From Saprospiraceae bacterium (GTDB taxonomy: Bacteria > Bacteroidota > Bacteroidia > Chitinophagales > Saprospiraceae): 37,007 bases of DNA. The DNA lies in NCBI GenBank assembly GCA_021299835.1, contig JAJTER010000031.1, positions 1 through 37,007 of the forward strand, given 5' to 3'. Below are positions 16,164 through 27,987 of this stretch, one piece after another (the stretch's first letter is position 1; every line of letters starts with the position of its first letter). Made by a program: the position numbers and the translations under genes. The notes under the pieces were generated by a model. It was not told the DNA's origin and did not search any database. It worked only from the letters and a program-made list of their open reading frames with translations.

Positions 16164-17489
16164 ATGGAAATAAATAATAAAATAAAAGAAGTACTGGGAA
16201 ATCTCAATATTTCTGAGCTAAATGAAATGCAGGAAGAAGCATTTCAAGCAATAAAAGAGGAATCGGAGGTTATTTTATTGGCACCAACAGGTTCTGGCAA
16301 GTCACTGGCTTTCCTATTGCCCGTTTTTGAACTTATAGACTCGAATAATAAGGATGTTCAAATCTTAGTCCTGACCCCAACCAGGGAGTTAGCTATACAG
16401 TTGGAACAGGTTTGGCAAAAAATGAAAACGGGATACAAAGTTAATACCTGCTACGGAGGTCATACAATGTCCGTTGAAATTCAAAATCTATCCCAGCCTC
16501 CTGCCATTATTATCGGTACGCCAGGTAGAATACTGGATCATCTGGGTAGGAGGTCGTTTGATCAAAGAAAGGTTAAAATTTTAATCTTAGACGAGTTCGA
16601 TAAGTCCTTAGCCATGGGTTTTCAAAACCAAATGGCACACATTATAAAAACGCTCACTGGCTTAAAAAAGAGGGTGCTTGTTTCTGCTACGCAAAAATTG
16701 CAAATTCCTCCCTTTGTGGGCATAACTACTCCTGTAACGTTGCTTTTTTCAACGATTGGCGAAAAAACAACAGAAGGGTTAAATCTTAAGGTCATTTATG
16801 GCGAAACGGACGATAAACTGGACCTTTTATTTGATTTACTATGCTACCTGGGGGCATCTCCTACGATTATTTTTTGTAACCTGAGGGGAACTACCGAAGA
16901 TGTTAGCGCAAGGCTGGCCGAAAAGGGAATAGTCAGTGCTTGTTTTCATGGGGGTATGACGCAGACAGATAGAGAAAAAACCTTGATTTCTTTTAGAAAT
17001 GGCAGTCTTATTTTTCTCATTTCTTCTGATCTCGCCGCCAGAGGTTTAGATATTCCCGAAGTGAAAAATATCATTCATTTTGAAATTCCGTCGAAAAACA
17101 CAGACTTTATTCATCGAAATGGTCGAACAGCAAGAATGCATGCGGAAGGTAATGCCTTCCTCTTGATAGGTAAAAATGAAAGGTTGCCCGTATATTTATC
17201 AGAGCCTCCCGAAACATTTGAAATTCCAATCGTTGACTCGCTTCCTGACCAATCACCCTGGATTACCTTATATATTAGTGGCGGTAAAAAAGATAAAATT
17301 AGTAAAACAGACATTGTTGGTTTCTTAGTAAAAAAGGGTGGGCTGGAATTGCATGAAATTGGTAAAATTGAAGGCATGGATTTTATGTCATTCGTAGCCG
17401 TCCACCGAAATAAATTGGAGGAGTTGTTGCTAAAAGTAAAAGATGAGAAACTAAAGGGTAAAAAATATCAGATTAGATTGGCAAGATAA
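16164..17489 (+). CDS. DEAD-box RNA helicase with DbpA-type C-terminal RNA-binding domain
   Basis: The 441-residue protein contains the helicase motifs in order: Q-motif region, APTGSGKS (motif I, 40-47), PTRELAIQ (Ia), TPGR (Ib), DEFD at 143-146 (motif II, a variant of DEAD), SAT (III), IIFCN (IV), ARGLDIP (V) and HRNGRTAR (VI). Residues about 365-441 (from WITLYISGGKKDKI) match the DbpA/CsdA RNA-binding domain. DbpA-like enzymes unwind RNA during large ribosomal subunit assembly or cold adaptation, so that is the likely role. Ten nucleotides separate its stop from the ATG of the first membrane regulator, suggesting possible co-transcription, although functions need not be linked. Confidence 0.93.
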   Translation: MEINNKIKEVLGNLNISELNEMQEEAFQAIKEESEVILLAPTGSGKSLAFLLPVFELIDSNNKDVQILVLTPTRELAIQLEQVWQKMKTGYKVNTCYGGHTMSVEIQNLSQPPAIIIGTPGRILDHLGRRSFDQRKVKILILDEFDKSLAMGFQNQMAHIIKTLTGLKKRVLVSATQKLQIPPFVGITTPVTLLFSTIGEKTTEGLNLKVIYGETDDKLDLLFDLLCYLGASPTIIFCNLRGTTEDVSARLAEKGIVSACFHGGMTQTDREKTLISFRNGSLIFLISSDLAARGLDIPEVKNIIHFEIPSKNTDFIHRNGRTARMHAEGNAFLLIGKNERLPVYLSEPPETFEIPIVDSLPDQSPWITLYISGGKKDKISKTDIVGFLVKKGGLELHEIGKIEGMDFMSFVAVHRNKLEELLLKVKDEKLKGKKYQIRLAR

Positions 17490-17499
17490 ATTATTGATA

Positions 17500-19053
17500 A
17501 TGTATAAATTATGTGTATTCCTTGTATTATTAGGTATTAATATACCATTATTTGGAAGGGATACAACGCTTTACAAAATAGTAACATCGACAAAGCCAAT
17601 TAGAAGTCTGGCAAAATTAAATGGTAATATTATTGTTACCCGGTATGATGGTGTGTTTGAATTTGATGGTGATAATTTCTTTAAAACAAGTATTAATAAG
17701 GAAAAGGTAAAGGTTACAAATAATGGAAACGAGAATTGGGCAAAATTGGTCAATTCAAAGTTAGATTATACTCAGGTGGAACTTTCAAATGATGGTATTT
17801 ATTGGGTACTGGTTAAAAATAAATTTATTTATGGGTTTAAGGTAACCGACAAAATTAAAAAATCATTGCCAGATCTGGCTATTAGAGGTATATACGCAAA
17901 CAATCATTCTTTACTTATCTCCACCTATAAAGGTTTTTATTTAAATCAAAAGCCAGTTTTTTCCGAAACCCTTTTTTTTTCAAATAGCAATATTATTGAA
18001 GAGAAGGGGCATTTTTATTTTGTGGCTAATGGCGAAATAATCTATAAAATGAGCATGGATGGATCAGAACTTGAAGAAATATTAGATCGTAGAAAATTAG
18101 AGAAGATTAATCAGCCTGCTGTGATTATTTTCCATAAGGGAATACTCTACATAGGAGGTGATAAAGGATTGGCCTTATATGGAATAAATAAAAAAATCCA
18201 ATTTCTTAGAGAAGGAATAGCCATTCATAATCTAAATATTATAAACGATAAACTTTGGATATCTGCAAGTGATGGCGTGTATATTCTTGAAAATAAAAAC
18301 CTTAACAAGGTTTTTAAAATCAATAATAGCACTGGTGTTTTTAATTTAGATGATTTGATCGTTTCTACCAGCTTCGAAGGACTGTGGACCTATGATATTA
18401 AAAAAAATAGATTAAAAAATGTCTTGTTAGGTTCCCCTTATGAAAAAATAGAAACGGATGCGTTTTATGAGGATAATTACGGTAATTTTTGGATAAGTAC
18501 TGTCAATGGATTAATTAGATACCATAGAGATAATAAAAATATTTCTGCCTTTTTGGAAGGAATAGAATTCAACAGGAGATCCTATTTTTTTTTAGGGGAT
18601 ACCATCTACCTTGGAAGTAATGGAAATGGATTAATCAGTTTCGATATCAAGGAATTGATTGCTGAAGATGGAATTAATACTCCCCCAAAAGAAAATTTCA
18701 GTTTTGTTTACCTGGGGTCTATCATTTTTATGGTTGTTTTGTTGATTGTGTTTTTCATTAGAATTATATTTAAACCGGTTGCTATAATAGTTGACCCTCC
18801 GAAAGAGAAAGTGGAAGCGGATGAAAATATATTTTTTTCATCTCTGGAAAATTATATCAGAGATCATATAGATGAGGTTAATATCGATCAAATCAGATAT
18901 CAGTCCGGTTTGACGAAATATGCTTTTTACACAAAATTTGTGAATCACTTTGGAAAAAAACCTAAAGAGTATCTGTCAGAAATAAAAATAAAAATTCTGC
19001 AAGAAAAGCAAAACCAGTTATTTAGGAAAAGAAATTCGGTGGAAGAAATATAA
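17500..19053 (+). CDS. Membrane-spanning one-component regulator: beta-propeller sensor + TM + half AraC domain (paralog 1)
   Basis: The 517-residue protein uses the ATG at 17500; an upstream in-frame TTG at 17494 is a less likely start. A signal peptide (about 1-20) precedes a sensor of repeated strands with the pattern hhxSTxxGhxxY, for example NFWISTVNGLIRY and LWISASDGVYIL. These resemble Reg_prop propeller blades (PF07494) of Bacteroidota hybrid two-component sensors. One transmembrane helix lies at about 403-426. After a linker, residues about 445-505 form a helix-turn-helix like the first half of an AraC domain (YQSGLTKYAFYTKF, FGKKPKEYL). No kinase, receiver or second AraC HTH follows. 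Likely topology is sensor outside the cytoplasmic membrane and HTH inside, so ligand binding could act directly on transcription. Ligand and targets are unknown. A close paralog follows 33 nt downstream. Confidence 0.8.
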   Translation: MYKLCVFLVLLGINIPLFGRDTTLYKIVTSTKPIRSLAKLNGNIIVTRYDGVFEFDGDNFFKTSINKEKVKVTNNGNENWAKLVNSKLDYTQVELSNDGIYWVLVKNKFIYGFKVTDKIKKSLPDLAIRGIYANNHSLLISTYKGFYLNQKPVFSETLFFSNSNIIEEKGHFYFVANGEIIYKMSMDGSELEEILDRRKLEKINQPAVIIFHKGILYIGGDKGLALYGINKKIQFLREGIAIHNLNIINDKLWISASDGVYILENKNLNKVFKINNSTGVFNLDDLIVSTSFEGLWTYDIKKNRLKNVLLGSPYEKIETDAFYEDNYGNFWISTVNGLIRYHRDNKNISAFLEGIEFNRRSYFFLGDTIYLGSNGNGLISFDIKELIAEDGINTPPKENFSFVYLGSIIFMVVLLIVFFIRIIFKPVAIIVDPPKEKVEADENIFFSSLENYIRDHIDEVNIDQIRYQSGLTKYAFYTKFVNHFGKKPKEYLSEIKIKILQEKQNQLFRKRNSVEEI

Positions 19054-19061
19054 TAATTGTT

Positions 19062-19069
19062 TATATTTG
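19062..19069 (+). promoter_or_regulatory. Candidate -7 element (TATATTTG) before regulator paralog 2
   Basis: TATATTTG matches TAnnTTTG exactly in the 33-nt gap between the paralogs, 17 nt before the ATG at 19087. No TTG at the usual distance upstream is seen. The second gene may therefore be expressed separately from the first, with a very short leader. Confidence 0.4.
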
Positions 19070-19086
19070 GAAACATAACATCCAAA

Positions 19087-20622
19087 ATGATTAAATATTC
19101 CTTACTTTTTATATCCTTTTTTTGCCTAGTCACTCTATCAGGAAGAGATACTACCCTTTTTAAAATCATTACTTCTCCTACGCCCATAAGACACATGGTC
19201 AAAATTGAGGGGAAAATTATTTTGGCACGTTATGATGGTATTTTTGAATTTGATGGGGAAAATTTCAATAAATCCAGTTACGAATACAGTGATTTATCTG
19301 CATCCCTTGAAAAAAATGAGCAATGGGCTAAATTGGCAGACCCTAAAATAGATGTTGCACAAGTTGAGTTATCCAGCGGCGGTATATATTGGGTTCTTAT
19401 CAGAAATAAGTTTTTATACGGTTTTCGAATTATAGAAAAAATTAAAAGAATTCTCCCTGAATATTCCATACGGGGTATTTATGTTTCAGGGGACTCTACT
19501 TATGTAGCCACTTATAATGGCTTCTATTTAGGAAATAAACAAATATATAAGGATACACTTCTTTTTTCAAATTCTAATTTCTGGATAGATAAGGAATACA
19601 TTTATTTTTCAGCAAATTATGAAGATCATGTTTATCGGGTCGATAAGCAATTCTCAAATTTGAAAATAATAATGCCAGGGGAGCTTAAAAATAAATTTAT
19701 CGCTCATATCTCGAGTGTATCCATATTTAACGAGTATTTATATGTTGGGGGAGAGAGAGGTTTTGGAAGGTTTAATGAAAAATCTGGCTTTGAATTGATG
19801 GATAAAAATATCGAGGTATCGAGTATTCAAATTTTTAAAGGTAAGTTATGGTTGGCCTGCGTAGATGGGATTTATGTGTTGGAAGCTGGAAAATTAGTCA
19901 GGAAATTCAATGAGGGTAGCACAGGTCTTTTTCCCGTAGGCAATAAATTGTTTTCAACCGGTTTTGAAGGACTTTGGGAATATGATACAGCGCTCAATAA
20001 GTGGACCAATATTTTAAAAGGAACCGTTTATGAGGATATTGAATCCGATGCCCTTTACGCTGATCTGTTTGGAAATTATTGGATAAGTACCATTGATGGA
20101 ATACTGAAGTACAATGTTAAAGATAAAAAGATAACGACTACCCTGGAGGGAACAGAATTTAATAGAAGATCTTACTTTTTTAAAAGGGATACCTTATATT
20201 TTGGAAGTAACAGTAATGGTCTGATTAGTTTTGAGGTAGAAAATATGATTTCTGATGATGTCATGAATTCTATTGAAGGTAAAAAGGGAAAATTTGGCTA
20301 TTTCCTTATGTTTTTATTTCTAATAAGTTTTCTGATTACTTTTTTTATATGGTGGTTCAAAAGAAAGCAAATGCCTGCTTATAATCAGGATACTAGTAAG
20401 CAAAATAAAAGAACAGACACGAATAAAATATTTTCAGAACTTGAAATTTATATCAGAAATAATATTGATGATTTGAATGTAGATCAAATTAGATATCAGA
20501 CGGGATTAACTAAATATGCTTTCTACACAAAATTTCAAGAATATTTTGGTAAAAAACCAAAAGAATTGATAGCTGAAATTAAAGAACAGATTTTGTCTGA
20601 AAACCAAAGAGTTACAAAATAA
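19087..20622 (+). CDS. Membrane-spanning one-component regulator: beta-propeller sensor + TM + half AraC domain (paralog 2)
   Basis: The 511-residue protein is a tandem paralog of the preceding gene, with the same order: signal peptide (about 1-20, from the ATG at 19087; the upstream TTG at 19057 would spoil it), exported propeller-like sensor with blades such as NYWISTIDGILKY and LWLACVDGIYVLE, one TM helix at about 401-424 (rich in Phe, ending WWFKRK), then a half AraC HTH at about 448-508 (YQTGLTKYAFYTKF). By eye about two thirds of the 60 HTH residues are identical to paralog 1. The sensor is clearly related but more divergent, so the two may read different ligands but similar DNA sites, or form heterodimers. 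Function and targets are unknown. Confidence 0.8.
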   Translation: MIKYSLLFISFFCLVTLSGRDTTLFKIITSPTPIRHMVKIEGKIILARYDGIFEFDGENFNKSSYEYSDLSASLEKNEQWAKLADPKIDVAQVELSSGGIYWVLIRNKFLYGFRIIEKIKRILPEYSIRGIYVSGDSTYVATYNGFYLGNKQIYKDTLLFSNSNFWIDKEYIYFSANYEDHVYRVDKQFSNLKIIMPGELKNKFIAHISSVSIFNEYLYVGGERGFGRFNEKSGFELMDKNIEVSSIQIFKGKLWLACVDGIYVLEAGKLVRKFNEGSTGLFPVGNKLFSTGFEGLWEYDTALNKWTNILKGTVYEDIESDALYADLFGNYWISTIDGILKYNVKDKKITTTLEGTEFNRRSYFFKRDTLYFGSNSNGLISFEVENMISDDVMNSIEGKKGKFGYFLMFLFLISFLITFFIWWFKRKQMPAYNQDTSKQNKRTDTNKIFSELEIYIRNNIDDLNVDQIRYQTGLTKYAFYTKFQEYFGKKPKELIAEIKEQILSENQRVTK

Positions 20623-20716
20623 AAAGAGTAAGTTCAGAAAAAAGTTTGATGAAATTCTGAAAAAAATCCGACGTCATTCAAAATATTTGGACATTTCACC
20701 CATTTTTTATCGCTAA

Positions 20717-20750
20717 TTGTTTTATTAAAATTTTGATAAAGCTATATTTG
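20717..20750 (+). promoter_or_regulatory. Candidate Bacteroidota promoter for a possible small RNA
   Basis: TTG (20717-20719) and TATATTTG (20743-20750) are separated by 23 nt, within the range for Bacteroidota -33/-7 promoters. Transcription would start near 20757, 130 nt before the next gene, and run into a terminator-like hairpin at 20821-20859. Confidence 0.5.
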
Positions 20751-20756
20751 TATAAT

Positions 20757-20859
20757 CTAAAGAAATCAGGGCTAAAAACTAATAAAAATATAAAGATTTA
20801 TAACTGGGAGTAATTTTGGAAAAAGGGGAATGCCTGCGGGTTATTTCCCTTTTCTTTTT
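20757..20859 (+). ncRNA. Possible small RNA of about 100 nt between promoter and terminator
   Basis: The interval between a well-formed promoter and an intrinsic terminator contains no reading frame of note and could be an independent small RNA. I recognise no known RNA family in it (no 4.5S, 6S or tmRNA signature). The alternative is that the hairpin only ends the regulator transcript and the promoter is fortuitous. The start coordinate is estimated from the -7 element. Confidence 0.35.
20821..20859 (+). terminator. Intrinsic terminator after the regulator pair / possible small RNA
   Basis: AAAAGGGGAA (20821-20830) pairs with TTTCCCTTTT (20844-20853) including one G-U pair, with a 13-nt loop, followed by C and five T. 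It lies upstream of the SRPBCC gene start at 20889. Confidence 0.7.
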
Positions 20860-20888
20860 GTAGGAAAAGGGATTATCTTTAGGAAAAA

Positions 20889-21392
20889 ATGAAATCTTCA
20901 GTTCAAATTTCTACCATTTTTCCAACAACTTTAGAACGCGCTTTTAAAACCCCGATGCTTTGTGATGTCACGAAAATACATACTGGCTATAGCGTGACGC
21001 CTAAAGTGACTCATTGCACAGAAGACGAAACCTGGGGTAAAAAAGGTGGAACCCGCAAAATATTCATGGCAAAGACGTCATCTTTTAAAGGAGGAGAAGC
21101 TTCGTTAGATAAAGTATTGGAAAGAAGAGAAAATGAATATTGGAAAATTGAAATTTCTGACTTCAAAATGCCTTCTATGGGTTTTGAGAAATTTCAGGGA
21201 GAATGGTTCACCAATCAAATCAAGGAAGGGGAAGTGGAAATTATTTATAAATATACCATGTACTCCAATAGCCTGATGCTCTATCCCTTCCACTGGCTTT
21301 TTACCAAAATTATCTGGAGGAATTATATGAGACACGTATTGGAGAACGTTAAAAAACTAGCTATTTCAGAGGCTCCTTATGTAAATTTATAA
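20889..21392 (+). CDS. SRPBCC (START/Bet v1-like) superfamily protein
   Basis: The 167-residue cytosolic protein opens with VQISTIFPTTLERAFKTP, the typical first strand and helix of SRPBCC ligand-binding folds. It ends with a long helix (NYMRHVLENVKKLAISEA). Such proteins bind hydrophobic ligands or act as cyclases or hydrolases; nothing here indicates a substrate. It has no signal peptide. The gene is preceded by a terminator, so it is likely its own unit. TATCTTTA at 20874-20881 is a near-match to a -7 box and would give an almost leaderless message. Confidence 0.75.
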   Translation: MKSSVQISTIFPTTLERAFKTPMLCDVTKIHTGYSVTPKVTHCTEDETWGKKGGTRKIFMAKTSSFKGGEASLDKVLERRENEYWKIEISDFKMPSMGFEKFQGEWFTNQIKEGEVEIIYKYTMYSNSLMLYPFHWLFTKIIWRNYMRHVLENVKKLAISEAPYVNL

Positions 21393-21483: not shown

Positions 21484-21972
21484 TTACAAAATCTTTGTTT
21501 TCTTCAAATCATTCTTTTTGCTTAGTTGATCAATGTATTTCAACATCATTTTTACTTGTTTATCTTCCGATGTTAAAGACGTAATTTTTCCTGTCATTTC
21601 TTTTTTTTCGTTTTCCGATAGCTTTTTGAATGCTTCTAATACTCCAGCGTCTTTAAAGGTATCTAAAATTTCCTTTTCACTAATCTCCTCCGTTGAAGTC
21701 AACAAGTATAGGGTAACAGTTACCGTGTCACCACCCTTTTTGTTGATTGATTTTCTGATATTGTTATTGATTGAAATGAGTTTGTCCTGTCCTGTGATGG
21801 TAAACAGATTGATGCGCTCAATTTTATAATGGTCAATAGTACCTGATACTTTTAAAGTTCCCCATTTCCCAATAATGTGTTTCGTATTGGGAATTTGTAT
21901 GTGATATGTCCAGGCGCCTTTACCTGGTTCATATTTTAATTCAAGTTTTTTATCTTTTACTATGTATTCCAT
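21484..21972 (-). CDS. DUF1905 + YdeI/OmpD-associated domain protein
   Basis: The 162-residue cytosolic protein has two small domains. Residues about 5-88 match DUF1905 (PF08922), seen in GKGAWTYHIQIP, the central GKWGTLKVSGTID strand pair and the end KKGGDTVTVTLYL. Residues about 100-155 match the YdeI/OmpD-associated helical domain (PF13376): LEAFKKLSENEKKEM followed by a basic helix. This domain pair is widespread, and its biochemical role is not established. The start is the only ATG consistent with the DUF1905 N-terminus. Its 5' end abuts the remnant of a monooxygenase-like gene on the other strand. Confidence 0.8.
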   Translation of the reverse strand: MEYIVKDKKLELKYEPGKGAWTYHIQIPNTKHIIGKWGTLKVSGTIDHYKIERINLFTITGQDKLISINNNIRKSINKKGGDTVTVTLYLLTSTEEISEKEILDTFKDAGVLEAFKKLSENEKKEMTGKITSLTSEDKQVKMMLKYIDQLSKKNDLKKTKIL

Positions 21973-21985
21973 TTTTTTTAGTTGT

Positions 21986-22150
21986 CCTTTAACAATAATA
22001 GAAGTTTATGCCAATTTGAAGGCTTATCAATCTCATATACTGACCCCTCATTTTAAAAAATACAAGGATACTGTCAAGGATATGGTTTTGTCATTAGAGC
22101 TAATTGATACCGAATTGATTGAAAGAGTGAATAAAGACGATTTCAAATGA
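21986..22150 (+). pseudogene. C-terminal fragment of a putative quinol monooxygenase (ABM domain)
   Basis: The frame ending at TGA 22148-22150 encodes LTIIEVYANLKAYQSH, then TPHFKKYKDTVKDMV and SLELIDTE. This closely follows the second half of small antibiotic-biosynthesis-monooxygenase (PF03992, YgiN-like) proteins, which are usually about 100 residues. The first half, about 45-50 residues, is missing: upstream sequence runs directly into the start of the DUF1905 gene on the opposite strand. An in-frame ATG at 21962 would give a 62-residue product, but the fold would be incomplete. I read it as a decayed remnant. Confidence 0.7.
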
Positions 22151-22196
22151 ATTAGTACACTGTTTTATTTTAAAATAAGTCAATCCGACCGAGGTA

Positions 22197-23372
22197 TTAA
22201 AGTTGAAATTTGTACAAATTGGCTATACCTTGTTGGTATTCCAATTCTAGTTGCAAATACTTATCATAAGATGAATAATAAAAATTTTCTTCGTAGAAAT
22301 ACTGAATCATCGTTAACTGCCCCATTTTCAATGCCTTATTTAAAAGACCTGTATCACTTATCGATAATAACATCTGATGGTATTCCCGCAAAGCATTCAA
22401 TCTTCCAACCACTTTATCATAATAGCCTTTTTTTTCCAGTTTATACCCAACGAATTGCATCTCAGCATTGGCATTTGCAAAATCAAGGTTTGCCCGAGCA
22501 GCATTCACTTTATTTTTATTTTCCCACAAAGGAATAGTAATACCTGTGTGCACCCCTTGATAACTCTGTCCCAAAATACTCTGAGCGTGATAACCTGTTT
22601 CAATCTTTGGCAATACCATAGCCTTTTGAACCAAAAGTTGTCTTTGCATAATTTCAATTTCCTGTTGGAAAATCTTCAAAACCGGATCATTGGCTTTAAT
22701 CATACTATCTAAAACGCTAAATTCGGGTAAAGCAACTTCTGATGGATAAATGGTATCTGTGACAACCAGCGGAATTCCCCCATTTAATTCTGTAAGTTTT
22801 GTAGTGTTTGCTTGAATTAAATGGTTATTTAATGAGGTATCATTTCGAATATTTAGCCATTGCAATTTTGCTTTATTTAGATCTAATATTATTGCATCCC
22901 CTTGAATCATTTTCTTTTGATAGTCATTAACCAACTCGCTTGTATTGGTTAATCTTCGATGTAATTCTACAGCCTTTTTATTTAAAAAAATGAGCTCCAG
23001 GGTGATTAACTTGGCTTGTAATAAAATTTCCTGTCTATGCACTTGTTGTTGCATTTCCGTATGTAGCACCTGAGAAACAGATAAAGAATTTTTTCGGCGA
23101 TACGTGGTAGGAAAGTCAAATCTTTGGGTAATTGAAAAATCCTTTTGATTTCCTGCCCCTGCTGGGGATCCAAACAGAAAGTCGTATTCAATCTGCGGAT
23201 CATAAGGAGTAAGTCCTGTTTTGAATTCTTCCCCTTTAGCTTGCCAGAATTTAGCATTCGACTGAATAGACTTATTATTTTTTTCAACGTTTTTTAATAC
23301 ACTATCAATGATGGATTGAGCATTTATTCGATTGAACGAGAAAATGGCTAACATGATTAGGATATTTCTCAT
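22197..23372 (-). CDS. TolC-family outer-membrane channel of a heavy-metal RND efflux system
   Basis: The 391-residue protein has a signal peptide (about 1-19, ending RINAQ) followed by long alpha-helical hairpins and short barrel strands, typical of the outer-membrane efflux protein family (CusC/CzcC-like). The strand segments FSITQRFDFPTT and GVHTGITIPLWENK and the helical stretches fit the duplicated TolC pattern. It would form the outer-membrane exit duct for the RND pump encoded just upstream. Its ATG overlaps the pump stop by 4 nt (ATGA), so the two are translationally coupled. It is the last gene of the efflux operon. The size is slightly short for TolC but usual for Bacteroidota metal-efflux members. 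Confidence 0.9.
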   Translation of the reverse strand: MRNILIMLAIFSFNRINAQSIIDSVLKNVEKNNKSIQSNAKFWQAKGEEFKTGLTPYDPQIEYDFLFGSPAGAGNQKDFSITQRFDFPTTYRRKNSLSVSQVLHTEMQQQVHRQEILLQAKLITLELIFLNKKAVELHRRLTNTSELVNDYQKKMIQGDAIILDLNKAKLQWLNIRNDTSLNNHLIQANTTKLTELNGGIPLVVTDTIYPSEVALPEFSVLDSMIKANDPVLKIFQQEIEIMQRQLLVQKAMVLPKIETGYHAQSILGQSYQGVHTGITIPLWENKNKVNAARANLDFANANAEMQFVGYKLEKKGYYDKVVGRLNALREYHQMLLSISDTGLLNKALKMGQLTMIQYFYEENFYYSSYDKYLQLELEYQQGIANLYKFQL

Positions 23373-26300
23373 TTTATTTCTGTTTTATTATTTGCTAAAT
23401 AATATACAATGGGAACCACAAACAGGTTTAGTAATGTGGAACTCAATAAGCCACCAAGTATGACTTTTGCCATTGGGCTTTGAATTTCATTTCCAGGCAA
23501 ATCACCACCCATTGCCAAAGGAATCAATGCTAGTCCAGCGGTAAGAGCGGTCATCAATATTGCACTCAATCTGTCTTTTGACCCGTTGATAATGGTGTCT
23601 TTCAATGCCATTCCTTGTTTTTGAAGCATTTGGTAATGTGAAACCAATAAAATTCCGTTTCTGGTTGCTATACCAAACAAGGTAATGAACCCAATAATTG
23701 CAGGAATACTTAGCATACCTGATGTGAGCCAAACGCTTAACACGCCACCGATTAAGGCTAAAGGAAGATTCAATAGAATAATTGTAGAGATTTTTACTGT
23801 TTTAAACTCCTGATAGAGCAAAAAGAAGATAACTAAAAGGGCTAATATGGAAGTTAATACTAAAGTTCTTGATGCTTCTTTCTCCGCTTCAAATTGTCCA
23901 CCATATTCTATCCGATAACCTTCAGGTAGTTTAACCTCAGTTTCAATCTTAGTTCTCATTTCATCAACCACACTTTTTTGATCTCTGCCTGCAACATTCG
24001 CAGAAACTACGGTTTTTCGTTGAACGTTTTCTCTGTTTATGGTATTCGGTCCAAGGGTTGAAACAACTTCAGCAACATAACTTAAAGGGATTTTCTGTCC
24101 ATCTCCTGCATCAATCAGTGTATTTTTGATATGCTCCATTTTGCCTCTGTTATCCTCATCAAATCGAAGTATTAAATCAAAACGTTTATTTTCCTCATAT
24201 ACTTCAGAAACCTTTTCTCCGGCAAATGCAACGTCTGTAAATTCTGCAAATTCACCTATGGTAATACCGTATTTGCCCAACATACTTCTATTAGCTTTAA
24301 TTTGGATCTGTGGTATTTGAATTTGAGGCTCTGAATTTAAATCAACCATACCCTCAATACCTTCTATGGATTTTTTGACTTCGTTAGACAAATTTTGTAA
24401 GGTGCCTAAATCTGTTCCGAAAATCTTAATGGCTATATTTGCTCTGGTACCAGAGAGCATGTGATCAATTCTATGGCCAATAGGTTGTCCAATGGTAATA
24501 TTAGCGCCAGAAATACTTGCCATTTTTTGACGCACATCCTTCATGAAATCATCTCTGTTTCTGTCTTTGAGTTCAAATGGAGCGTCAATTTCAGATGCAT
24601 TTACACCTTGAGCATGTTCATCAAGTTCAGCCCTGCCAGTGCGTCTCGTGGTAATTTTAATTTCAGGAACTGTCAATAATGTTTTTTCAACCTGAACGCC
24701 AATTTTATTGCTTTCCTCCAGAGAAATCCCTGGCATACTTGTTACGCTGACTACCAACGAACCCTCATTAAATTCAGGCAAAAAACTCCGACCTAAGGAC
24801 CCAAGTAAAATCAGTGAGGCTACAAAAAGAGCCAAGGAAACACCCAGGATGGGCTTTTTGTATCTCATGGCCATATTCAAGCTATTCTCATACAAACTGC
24901 TGAGTTTCCGAACCAGCCAGCTTTCTTTGTGCTGTCTTTCCAGCATCTTATCTCCAGTGAGAAGATAACTACAAAGTACTGGCGTAATAGATATTGCGAC
25001 AATGAGCGAAGCAAATAAAGCAACAATAAATGCAATGCCTAATGGCGCCAATAATCTTCCTTCCATTCCAGATAAAAAGAAAAGTGGAATGAAGGCGACA
25101 ATGATTATGAAAGTTGCATTTATAACCGATGTTCTTATTTCAACGGATGCATCATAAATTACTTTGATTTTGTTTTTTTGTAACTCACGAGGTTTAGCCG
25201 CATTTTCTTTTAGTCTCCTGAATACATTTTCAACATCTATAATTGCGTCATCTACCAAATCGCCAATGGCAATGGCCATACCACCTAAACTCATTGTGTT
25301 GATGGTAAATCCAAACCATTTCAAAACGAGAATAGCAGCTATAAGTGAGATTGGAATTGCGACAAGAGAAATCACTGTTGCCCTCCAATTCATTAAGAAT
25401 AAAAATAGTATCAATACCACGAATAAAGAGCCTTCTATGAGTGTTTTCTTAATATTCCCAATGGAGGCATTTATGAAATCGGATTGACGAAATATATGAG
25501 TGTTTATTTGTAGATCTCCAGGTAAGCTTTTCTTTAATTCAAAAAGGGATTGATCGATTTTGTCTGTCAATGCTAAGGTATTAGTGCCTGGCTGTTTCAT
25601 TACAGTCATGATTACTGCCGGACTACCCTTTAAGGATCCGTCACCAATTTTAATGGACGAACCAATTTTAAGTTCAGCAACATCCTCTAGTTTTATAGGG
25701 ATGCCATCCTGAGTTTTTATAACCGATTTCCCTAAATCAATCAAGTCGTTGGTTCTGCCAATGCCTCGAACAATATACTCATTTCCATATTCCTGCATGA
25801 ATCCACCGGATGCATTTGTGTTCGCTTCTTTTGATGCTTTTAAAAGTTCAGACAATGAAACATTATATGATTTCATTTTTTGTGGCGAAGCCAGAATTTG
25901 ATACTGTTTATACTCTCCACCAATGACAACTACTTGAGATACACCACCAATAGATAATAACAGCGGTCTAATATTCCAATCGGCAATAGTCCTAATATCC
26001 AGTTGATTCATTTTTTTAGCAGTGACACTAATCAACATAATTTCTCCCATAATTGAGGATTGGGGAGCCATGATGGGTGCACTTACACCACTTGGCAGCT
26101 GATTTGCGACGATACTAATTTTTTCACTTACAATTTGTCTGGCTTTATAAATATCAGTTCCCCAATCAAATTCTACCCAAACAATGGATATACCGGCAGA
26201 TGATGATGAACGAACTCTTCTTACGTTGCCTGAACCATTTACGGATGTTTCTATTGGAAACGTTACCAGACGTTCAACTTCTTCAGGGGCCATTCCATGC

Positions 26301-26458
26301 GATTCTGTAAGCACAACAACAGTTGGAGCTGTTAAATCAGGAAATACATCAACTTCCATTTTTGATGCAGAATATGTCCCCCAAAAGATGAGAATTGCAG
26401 ATACAGCAATAACTAATAAGCGATTGTGTAGAGAATAACTTATAATTCTATTTAACAT
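23369..26458 (-). CDS. CusA/CzcA-family heavy-metal RND efflux pump
   Basis: The 1029-residue inner-membrane proton antiporter shows the HME-RND pattern: a first TM helix, the segment KMEVDVFPDLTAPTV (32-46) and large periplasmic loops. A charged TM4 motif GDLVDDAIIDVEN begins at 399, with Asp403, Asp404, Asp408 and Glu410 the likely proton-relay residues. A duplicated second half follows. Such pumps extrude Cu(I)/Ag(I) or Zn/Co/Cd from periplasm or cytoplasm through the adaptor and TolC-like channel encoded beside it. The specificity residues cannot be settled by eye, so neither cusA nor czcA is assigned. It lies 11 nt after the adaptor gene and overlaps the channel gene. Confidence 0.95.
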   Translation of the reverse strand: MLNRIISYSLHNRLLVIAVSAILIFWGTYSASKMEVDVFPDLTAPTVVVLTESHGMAPEEVERLVTFPIETSVNGSGNVRRVRSSSSAGISIVWVEFDWGTDIYKARQIVSEKISIVANQLPSGVSAPIMAPQSSIMGEIMLISVTAKKMNQLDIRTIADWNIRPLLLSIGGVSQVVVIGGEYKQYQILASPQKMKSYNVSLSELLKASKEANTNASGGFMQEYGNEYIVRGIGRTNDLIDLGKSVIKTQDGIPIKLEDVAELKIGSSIKIGDGSLKGSPAVIMTVMKQPGTNTLALTDKIDQSLFELKKSLPGDLQINTHIFRQSDFINASIGNIKKTLIEGSLFVVLILFLFLMNWRATVISLVAIPISLIAAILVLKWFGFTINTMSLGGMAIAIGDLVDDAIIDVENVFRRLKENAAKPRELQKNKIKVIYDASVEIRTSVINATFIIIVAFIPLFFLSGMEGRLLAPLGIAFIVALFASLIVAISITPVLCSYLLTGDKMLERQHKESWLVRKLSSLYENSLNMAMRYKKPILGVSLALFVASLILLGSLGRSFLPEFNEGSLVVSVTSMPGISLEESNKIGVQVEKTLLTVPEIKITTRRTGRAELDEHAQGVNASEIDAPFELKDRNRDDFMKDVRQKMASISGANITIGQPIGHRIDHMLSGTRANIAIKIFGTDLGTLQNLSNEVKKSIEGIEGMVDLNSEPQIQIPQIQIKANRSMLGKYGITIGEFAEFTDVAFAGEKVSEVYEENKRFDLILRFDEDNRGKMEHIKNTLIDAGDGQKIPLSYVAEVVSTLGPNTINRENVQRKTVVSANVAGRDQKSVVDEMRTKIETEVKLPEGYRIEYGGQFEAEKEASRTLVLTSILALLVIFFLLYQEFKTVKISTIILLNLPLALIGGVLSVWLTSGMLSIPAIIGFITLFGIATRNGILLVSHYQMLQKQGMALKDTIINGSKDRLSAILMTALTAGLALIPLAMGGDLPGNEIQSPMAKVILGGLLSSTLLNLFVVPIVYYLANNKTEIK

Positions 26459-26469
26459 ATCATCTTATT

Positions 26470-27987
26470 TTAATGCTCATGACCATGGGCAGGCATAGTG
26501 CCGCTTGCCTGTGATAGTTTAATTTGGTAAGCCCCTTTGGTTACTAATCGCTCACCTTCAGAAAGTCCACCTATTACCTGAACGAGAAACCCATTATTTA
26601 CCCCTAATTTTAATTCACGTTTTTGAAAACTTTCTCCTGACGTTTGTACATAAGCGAAAAATACGCCTTGTTCTTCAATGAGTGCTGAGGTAGGAATAAC
26701 TAAAGCATTATTTATGGCTGTTGTATTTAAAAAAACCTCCGCAAATGACCCTGGAATAATTTCAGGTTTTCCGTCTATTTGAAAATAAATGGGCAGGTAG
26801 GGGATATTTACTTCGGTGGTTTTACCAATGGATAACAAATGCCCATTGAGCTCTTTGGTATTAAAAGTTTTATTGTTTTGAATGAGCCTGAAATTGGCAT
26901 CCGTTATACTGGAAATTTGATCAGTATATTTCAGAGATAACTCAGCTTTCAAAACAAGTTTCTGATTTTTGCTAACTACTGCCAATGGCTGTCCTGCAGT
27001 TACGTATTGTCCTTCAGTTACTAATACATTTTTAATAGTCCCGTCCATTGGTGAATCCGCCCTTTTGCCACCAGAATAATAATTTCTCTTTAGGTTACTT
27101 AAACTGATTTTTGCATTTTCCAGACGCAGCTTAACCGTTTGAAATTCGCTTTGAGTGACTAAACGGTCCTTAATCAATTCCGCTACCCTGTCAAATTCCT
27201 TTTGAGCAGTTAATAATTCTGCATCAGCTAATTGTTTAGTTGCATCAACATTTTCAAAAGGAATTTCTCCTCCTGAAATTGAAAATAATGATTGTCCTTT
27301 TTTCACCGATACTCCAAGTAAAAGGCTGTTACCTGAAAATTTGACTATGCCATTAGATTTAGCAACAATGGTCATTGCGTCACCAGGCGCAGACATAATT
27401 TCTCCCGTAGTTTTGATAACATCAAAAATGGTCTGCTTCACTATAGGCGCATTGGCAAATGCTACTTTCCAGGCCTGTTCCTTTAAATAAGAAATATCAC
27501 TGTTATTCGATGTTTCTGATTGGGCAGAAATGGCGGTTTTTTCATCATTGAAAACTTGTATGCTATCAATGATCATCTGATCGGTAAACGTTTGTGTTTT
27601 AATATTAAACAACAGTTTAGCCCACCCAGCTTTTTGGGGTTGCAGAGCTAAACGAAAAATTCCTGGTGAACTTGGTGCCATTGTTGAATTTTTCAATCCC
27701 GATGTACCTATAATTAAACTTACCGTTACTTCCCCTTCAGTGTAAGGAATAAATTGTTCTCCCAATTGAGTCAAGTGGGTAGCAAAATTTGATGTGCTAC
27801 CCACTACCAATGGTTTAAACTCTACAAAAAGTTCCGATTTTTCTGAATAAACTGTATATGAGACAGATTTTAAACCTTCTTCTCCTGGATGGCTACCGTC
27901 TGGCGCATGTACATGCTCTTCTGAAGTTGACTGTTCGCAGGATAATAAAATACACCCAAGGAAAAAGATTACTAAAAGCTGTTTCAT
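26470..27987 (-). CDS. Periplasmic adaptor (membrane-fusion) lipoprotein of the RND efflux system
   Basis: The 505-residue lipoprotein (lipobox LLSC, Cys17) begins with a His-rich stretch EEHVHAPDGSHPGEEG. About 45-145 looks like a small beta-sandwich (YtkA/FixH-like, my inference). From about 185 come the HlyD/CusB elements: a barrel-sandwich segment (GIVKFSG, LFSISGGEIP), a helical hairpin at about 245-300 and the second half SPMDGTIKNVLVTEGQYVTAG, with the beta-barrel and membrane-proximal parts after it. The C-terminus ends PAHGHEH, again His-rich. It would bridge pump and channel and hand over metal ions. It sits 16 nt after the small His-rich lipoprotein gene and 11 nt before the pump. 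Confidence 0.92.
   Translation of the reverse strand: MKQLLVIFFLGCILLSCEQSTSEEHVHAPDGSHPGEEGLKSVSYTVYSEKSELFVEFKPLVVGSTSNFATHLTQLGEQFIPYTEGEVTVSLIIGTSGLKNSTMAPSSPGIFRLALQPQKAGWAKLLFNIKTQTFTDQMIIDSIQVFNDEKTAISAQSETSNNSDISYLKEQAWKVAFANAPIVKQTIFDVIKTTGEIMSAPGDAMTIVAKSNGIVKFSGNSLLLGVSVKKGQSLFSISGGEIPFENVDATKQLADAELLTAQKEFDRVAELIKDRLVTQSEFQTVKLRLENAKISLSNLKRNYYSGGKRADSPMDGTIKNVLVTEGQYVTAGQPLAVVSKNQKLVLKAELSLKYTDQISSITDANFRLIQNNKTFNTKELNGHLLSIGKTTEVNIPYLPIYFQIDGKPEIIPGSFAEVFLNTTAINNALVIPTSALIEEQGVFFAYVQTSGESFQKRELKLGVNNGFLVQVIGGLSEGERLVTKGAYQIKLSQASGTMPAHGHEH

Follow-up and report, generated by a model that had tools for sequence, protein, structure and literature searches.

Introduction

Regulators of the AraC type carry two helix-turn-helix (HTH) units in one domain, and the membrane regulators of the co-component and CadC/ToxR types combine other sensor folds than the propeller treated here with an HTH that is not of the AraC type. 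In general plan the latter resemble the proteins of the present study, with a sensor outside, a transmembrane (TM) helix and an HTH output inside, as far as the available part of the source describes them (PMC9214523). Hybrid two-component sensors (HTCS), e.g., BT4663, likewise possess a propeller sensor outside, a TM segment and an AraC-type HTH inside, but are distinguished by two propeller blocks' length, by Y_Y_Y, kinase and receiver domains and by an AraC domain with both HTHs; these extra parts were not found in the two proteins presented here. For HTCS, transcription was reported to be activated when AraC DNA-binding domains are brought next to each other (PMC11253607, available text). 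Membrane-bound AraC-type regulators are already in print for Saccharophagus degradans; compared by the partial description at hand only, they share with our proteins the AraC-type DNA-binding part, the membrane location and the lack of a kinase (PMC2386152). In Rob and MarA (AraC/XylS) DNA recognition is driven by the first HTH, according to the accessible portion of PMC8279559, but these proteins are soluble and have both HTHs. SusR, which a sequence-only reading of the locus had named as a partial precedent, is alike by description in its sensor outside and its DNA-binding part near the C-terminus inside, and is a weak precedent inasmuch as its DNA-binding domain reportedly shows no significant similarity to other known ones in the part of PMC3878776 available. 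In the titles and abstract openings searched, a coverage mostly outside the subscription literature, neither a propeller-TM-AraC class nor a single-HTH AraC class was described.

In the present study two adjacent genes, A and B, were analyzed in a window of 37,007 nucleotides from a Saprospiraceae bacterium, which makes up the entire contig C127; the genome measures 4.04 Mb and is 96.5% complete. The sequence-only reading had seen in them two paralogs with an exported propeller, a single TM helix and one half of an AraC domain, a layout that it could not match to a described class.

Results and Discussion

Gene layout and domain structure

Both open reading frames were found where the reading had placed them, and the features of the locus are as follows.

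16164..17489, + strand: DbpA-like DEAD-box helicase gene (Pfam DEAD, Helicase_C, DbpA)
17500..19053, + strand: gene A, predicted propeller-TM-single HTH regulator, 517 aa, ATG start
17560..18651, + strand: propeller of A, residues about 21-384 (AlphaFold2 strands; Foldseek match to BT4663)
18697..18768, + strand: TM helix of A, residues 400-423 (AlphaFold2; hydropathy scan)
18823..18951, + strand: HTH helices of A, residues 442-484 (AlphaFold2; first-HTH HMM, E 2.2e-6)
18961..19047, + strand: long last helix of A, residues 488-516, 29 residues (AlphaFold2)
19087..20622, + strand: gene B, paralog of A, 511 aa, ATG start
19147..20238, + strand: propeller of B, residues about 21-384 (AlphaFold2 strands)
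20284..20364, + strand: TM helix of B, residues 400-426 (AlphaFold2; hydropathy scan)
20419..20547, + strand: HTH helices of B, residues 445-487 (AlphaFold2; first-HTH HMM, E 2.5e-8)
20557..20616, + strand: last helix of B, residues 491-510, 20 residues (AlphaFold2)

Helicase, A and B lie on the same strand, with gaps of 10 bases between the helicase stop and A and of 33 bases between the A stop and B, and the helicase gene and A are likely to be on one transcript. A TTG codon is situated at 19057, 5' of the ATG of B. In both proteins the chain runs from a hydrophobic N-terminus through propeller, one TM helix, variable linker and one HTH to a last helix, which in A occupies the place of the AraC linker helix that would lead into a second HTH. 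A and B are identical at 41 of 60 HTH residues (68%), at 168 of 362 residues of the propeller (46%) and at 14 of 56 in the TM/linker region, in agreement with the earlier estimate of HTHs about two-thirds identical over 60 residues and more divergent sensors.

The HMM and monomer modelling checks proposed by the sequence-only reading gave the following results. Reg_prop was matched in A below threshold (17.4 bits, Pfam cut-off 20.4), and in B no Pfam match to it was obtained and a PorZ propeller match was sub-threshold only; the NCBIfam scan of both proteins yielded 0 matches above cut-off. The HTCS-type propeller, weak in Pfam, is present in the AlphaFold2 models of both proteins (mean pLDDT 67 in A, 70 in B), and with the A model the best PDB match of Foldseek was the periplasmic domain of the hybrid two-component sensor BT4663 (E 1.3e-14, TM-score 0.41 of the query). 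Hydropathy scanning detected a single TM helix in A and in B and, at the threshold used, flagged an N-terminal hydrophobic stretch in A and left it unflagged in B, while an N-terminal helix of residues 2-14 is present in both models alike. The exported propeller with its single TM helix is thereby supported. Kinase, receiver and Y_Y_Y were absent from A and B in Pfam, kinase and receiver being looked for at E values up to 1; membership in the HTCS was rejected, kinase and receiver being present in the two HTCS scanned. By prediction, A and B fit a membrane one-component regulator composed of sensor, TM helix and DNA-binding domain, without phosphotransfer parts.

The single HTH as first half of the AraC pair

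Pfam matched PF00165 in B below threshold (13.6 vs. 26.6 bits) and found no HTH in A, and in single-HTH relatives HTH_18 was matched at profile positions 6-38 or 4-39 of 80 only. Half-specific HMMs were built separately from both halves of the two-HTH sister clade (see below). The first-half HMM matched 12/12 single-HTH tails (E 6.6e-16 to 2.2e-6), the second-half HMM none of these 12 (best E 0.062), and no second half was found in six frames over the 300 nt 3' of either stop (best E 0.22), so that the claim of only one AraC HTH was upheld. A second HTH hidden by a frame change or by faulty assembly was rejected because this six-frame search was empty and the 12 full-length proteins have like endings.

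A profile from ten single-HTH tails retrieved AraC-type chains from the PDB, namely XylR (best, E 1.4e-4), an HTCS AraC domain, SoxS and MarA, with TetR-type chains among the weaker matches. Against this profile the HTCS AraC chain scored 22.7 bits with its first and 1.7 bits with its second HTH, and the HTHs of XylR scored alike (11.0 and 11.9 bits, respectively); the identity of the HTH as the first one is settled better by the half-specific HMMs than by the PDB search. Homology to AraC HTHs is indicated by the first HTH of the two-HTH kin and by the PDB matches, with Pfam sub-threshold, and of the two HTHs joined by a helix that define an AraC/XylS domain only the first occurs in all 12 proteins. 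In ten-residue blocks pLDDT over the HTH reached 68-83 in A and 67-79 in B, save for a single block in B, at the border with the linker, which had 49. The tails are balanced in charge (K+R vs. D+E: 13 vs. 12 in A, 11 vs. 11 in B). In HTH helix 2, the residue after the conserved hydrophobic is Arg in 12/12 single-HTH proteins, Ile in 6/6 members of clade 3 and Ala in 3/3 distant members, Arg thus occurring in 0/9 two-HTH proteins; this Arg might provide an extra contact or upset the packing of the HTH.

The family within the genus

A and B share full-length homology, the motif EFN[KR] at the end of the propeller and, after it, TM helix and HTH, the features by which the family was delimited, and members were present in 7/7 genomes of the genus examined. 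Of 29 distinct matching frames in the loci, 19 were kept, the other 10 being two proteins of kinase type, edge pieces and partial copies; one of the 19 (L031) was excluded from the trees because of an internal stop, leaving 18 proteins, 12 with a single HTH and six with two, and a further clade-3 member (G005, contig C142) stands outside the trees. Single-HTH proteins comprise clade 1 with the types of A and B, clade 2a (L003, L018, L030) and clade 2b (L021, L025), and the two-HTH sister clade in the genus is clade 3 (L023, L026, L010, L032, L024, L027), which was assigned two HTHs on grounds of the alignment and of sub-threshold HTH_18 matches reaching positions 59-75 of 80 in 4/5 proteins scanned. 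The genome of the window also harbors a clade-2a paralog, the family match found in it besides A and B, which has a single HTH.

The unrooted full-length tree separated single- from two-HTH proteins with a support of 100/100. Rooted with 22 proteins from other genera (five shorter matches dropped), the propeller tree gave 87/83 for the single-HTH and 100/100 for the two-HTH clade, with bootstrapping incompletely settled; three outgroup proteins scanned were two full HTCS with a two-HTH AraC end and one kinase without an AraC end. A tree rooted on two distant family members, with long branches flagged, resulted in 89/85 and 97/100, respectively. Since the genus itself and three further genomes have two-HTH family members, the half domain has the look of a loss. 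These trees give moderate support to the view that the second HTH disappeared in the common ancestor of the single-HTH clade, one event being the simplest history. The single-HTH form is a conserved state, kept in 12/12 full-length proteins of the clade to which the window belongs.

Three further loci were observed: a second tandem pair in the family, consisting of two-HTH members behind two Fib_succ_major genes (G001:C3:138260-141829, L142), a two-HTH member with an internal stop ahead of its HTH region (G004:C128:9632-11179, L145), and a stray piece that matches the HTH end of the family alone and has a stop inside (G005:C120:4094-4213).

Relatives outside the genus

The family-level profile search, which covered 199 genomes (three of this genus) and scored up to seven candidates per genome, yielded, among the matches listed, propeller-part matches in other genera. 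On phylum level 1/295 other genomes gave a full-length match with an E value of at most 1e-25; within the order to which that genome belongs a match was present in 1/147 other genomes (E 1e-20), and on class level in 2/394 (E 1e-35), one of which was already in the profile. Owing to overlapping draws, few candidates scored per genome and strict thresholds these counts are minimum values. The three distant members, L196 (541 aa), L201 (560 aa) and L204 (550 aa), are, like clade 3, full-length homologs of A and B with the EFN[KR] motif in the last blade, but have kept the second HTH, which in these three is shortened and stops soon after the recognition helix (HTH_18 in L196: 33.0 bits vs. cut-off 33.6; HTHs of L201 and L204 read by eye). 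The second HTH would thus form a graded series, longer in clade 3, shortened in the distant three and missing from the single-HTH clade. Short-frame propeller matches were read for six proteins (L190-L195), others, e.g., a 482-aa frame in G138, being left out; by eye none was accepted into the family, two having OmpA-like ends and one a kinase-like end, two running off the contig and one lacking a TM-HTH end.

The proposed search for the same architecture disclosed single-HTH kin in the genus, together with two-HTH members in the genus and in three distant genomes. As far as these sequence comparisons reach, neither a full AraC domain or a non-DNA-binding C-terminus nor an established family of identical architecture emerged. 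The earlier remark that the layout could not be matched to a described class stands in so far as no propeller-TM-AraC class was found described, and has to be narrowed because a small family exists and membrane-bound AraC regulators are already in print: among membrane one-component regulators the type of A and B is an unusual variant, real and conserved, and not categorically new.

Synteny and selection

Helicase and A adjoin in the same order in five other genomes of the genus, and A and B are adjacent in five others, several of these copies being interrupted by masked bases or the end of a contig; in G003 (88% complete) a clade-1 copy was not found. Among orthologs A is 79-85% identical, vs. 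97-99% in the helicase. In A, dN/dS against orthologs from five genomes was 0.13-0.26 for the propeller, 0.38-0.72 for the TM/linker region and 0.18-0.28 for the HTH, which is no tighter constrained than the propeller. The corresponding values in B were 0.12-0.22 (four genomes), 0.32-0.37 and 0.02-0.07 (two genomes), and for comparison the helicase gave 0.02-0.05 and a phosphoesterase neighbour 0.10-0.13; these estimates come from short regions, and the partial A of G005 gave an outlying dS of 0.96. Purifying selection acts on the propeller and the HTH of either gene, and the linker is loosest.

Fib_succ_major neighbours

Diversity-generating retroelements count Fib_succ_major among their target domains, as stated in the available part of PMC4159848. 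Neighbour counts for this domain (PF09603) were based on 150 of 165 matches and are therefore lower bounds, in which orthologs and tandem copies are not independent. At least 9/11 members of clades 2a and 3 are near a Fib_succ_major gene, i.e., within 4 kb at least 3/3 in clade 2a and at least 6/8 in clade 3 (a broken copy counted), and the genes are on the same strand as the family gene in the eight loci mapped; at most 4.3% of these genomes lies within 4 kb of a listed Fib_succ_major gene. Among the matches listed, no such neighbour occurs within 4 kb of clade 1 (0/12), the A-B pair of the window included, of clade 2b (0/2) or of a partial gene (0/1). In the same genomes, AraC proteins with frames of 365-430 aa were within 4 kb of Fib_succ_major in at least 15/42 cases, those of 250-345 aa in 0/58 among the matches listed, and those of 500 aa or more in at least 1/13, that one being a family member; 14 proteins read in the 365-430 aa class have 2-6 hydrophobic segments each. 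Loci with Fib_succ_major beside membrane-type AraC genes (clades 2a, 3 and multi-TM proteins of ~400 aa) are L134, L136, L137, L140, L142-L144 and L146 as well as L176-L187.

These neighbourhoods suggest that membrane-tethered AraC proteins of the genus often control Fib_succ_major surface proteins, and that in single-HTH clade 2a, which has this neighbour in common with two-HTH clade 3, one HTH would be enough in this setting.

Mechanism and rival explanations

We regard it as probable that A and B are kinase-free transmembrane one-component regulators, dimers of which (A-A, B-B or A-B) pair the single HTHs on DNA. The exported HTCS-type propeller would sense a ligand or partner protein, the one TM helix would pass the signal inward, the cytoplasmic AraC-type HTH would bind DNA, and the dimer would replace the lost second HTH, for which it could stand in because two adjacent chains supply two HTHs. 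In favour of this reading are the domain layout, the kinship and the conservation that the computations show, with only the first HTH present throughout the single-HTH clade, two-HTH kin inside and outside the genus, purifying selection, the kept gene order and the Fib_succ_major neighbour common to clades 2a and 3; a precedent is the activation reported for juxtaposed AraC DNA-binding domains in HTCS (PMC11253607). Against this reading speak the low or absent Pfam scores of the HTH, the second HTH of XylR scoring like the first, the TetR chains and the helix-2 Arg, which possibly harms packing, furthermore the HTH of A, unconstrained beyond its propeller, the balanced tail charge and the pair's lack of a listed Fib_succ_major neighbour. 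The lasting adjacency of the two genes and the similarity of their HTHs make an A-B heterodimer attractive; that A and B are a split AraC reader, i.e., an obligate membrane heterodimer that rebuilds the two-HTH unit and has both propellers jointly gate one promoter, is a tentative and rather doubtful proposal.

It is unlikely that each chain binds DNA alone with its one HTH and needs no dimer: tight binding through a single HTH was reported for Rob in the part of PMC8279559 available, yet Rob still carries both HTHs, and tandem pairs, which occur twice in the family (window type; contig C3 of G001), suit pairing without showing it. There is little probability, too, that the single-HTH proteins have ceased to bind DNA and pair as co-receptors or inhibitors with other family members, as could be read from the lost second HTH, the helix-2 Arg, the balanced charge, the clade-2a paralog in the genome of the window and enteric membrane pairs with one non-DNA-binding partner (PMC9214523, available part). 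The low dN/dS of the HTH, particularly the two comparisons for B, argues against it, as does the fact that this paralog is itself single-HTH and that clade 2a resembles two-HTH clade 3 in the type of gene it adjoins. Decay of A and B as copies on their way out would agree with their faster change relative to their neighbours, seen in the identities of A, and with the internal stop in a two-HTH copy elsewhere; since the dN/dS values of both genes, for the propeller as for the HTH, stay far under 1 and the frames are open in all complete clade-1 copies read, the pseudogene reading was rejected and is most improbable. Hardly to be expected at all is an HTH with RNA or a protein as its ligand that acts together with the adjoining DbpA-like helicase, an adjacency kept in six genomes of the genus, the window's included, but a propeller gene was present in 0/25 helicase loci of other genera, flanks being read up to about 1.5 kb, which discards the helicase as an old partner, and clades 2 and 3 are not beside this helicase.

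A clade that has lost one HTH, and whose genus also includes two-HTH kin, offers a natural experiment on the purpose of the second HTH and on the ability of a membrane dimer to take its place. The family represents a kinase-free way of wiring HTCS-type propellers to transcription, and its clades 2a and 3 point to Fib_succ_major surface proteins as possible targets.

A recurrent motif and the region downstream of B

The motif AAATATTTGG has eight matches in 396 kb on both strands, six of which lie after B (three orthologous places) or upstream of clade-2a Fib_succ_major genes (three orthologous places), namely at 20681 in the window and at L129:15154, L130:12709, L134:8625, L136:10946 and L137:8610. 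As it was chosen after the fact, it is only a lead to a shared DNA motif, and its recurrence may be chance; the place in L134 has an inverted repeat by eye.

Positions 20623-20888, which separate B from the gene that follows and are strongly conserved in three genomes, have a T-rich hairpin-like end by eye, and Rfam gave 0 matches at gathering thresholds for RNA elements in the window, this stretch included. The gene that follows on the same strand (20889-21392) encodes a 167-aa protein without a Pfam match, which is 93-94% identical in two relatives. Further on, a block of DUF1905, OEP, AcrB-type and HlyD genes (21484-27987) was gained or lost between the genome of the window and G005, since its flanking genes adjoin in the latter (L130).
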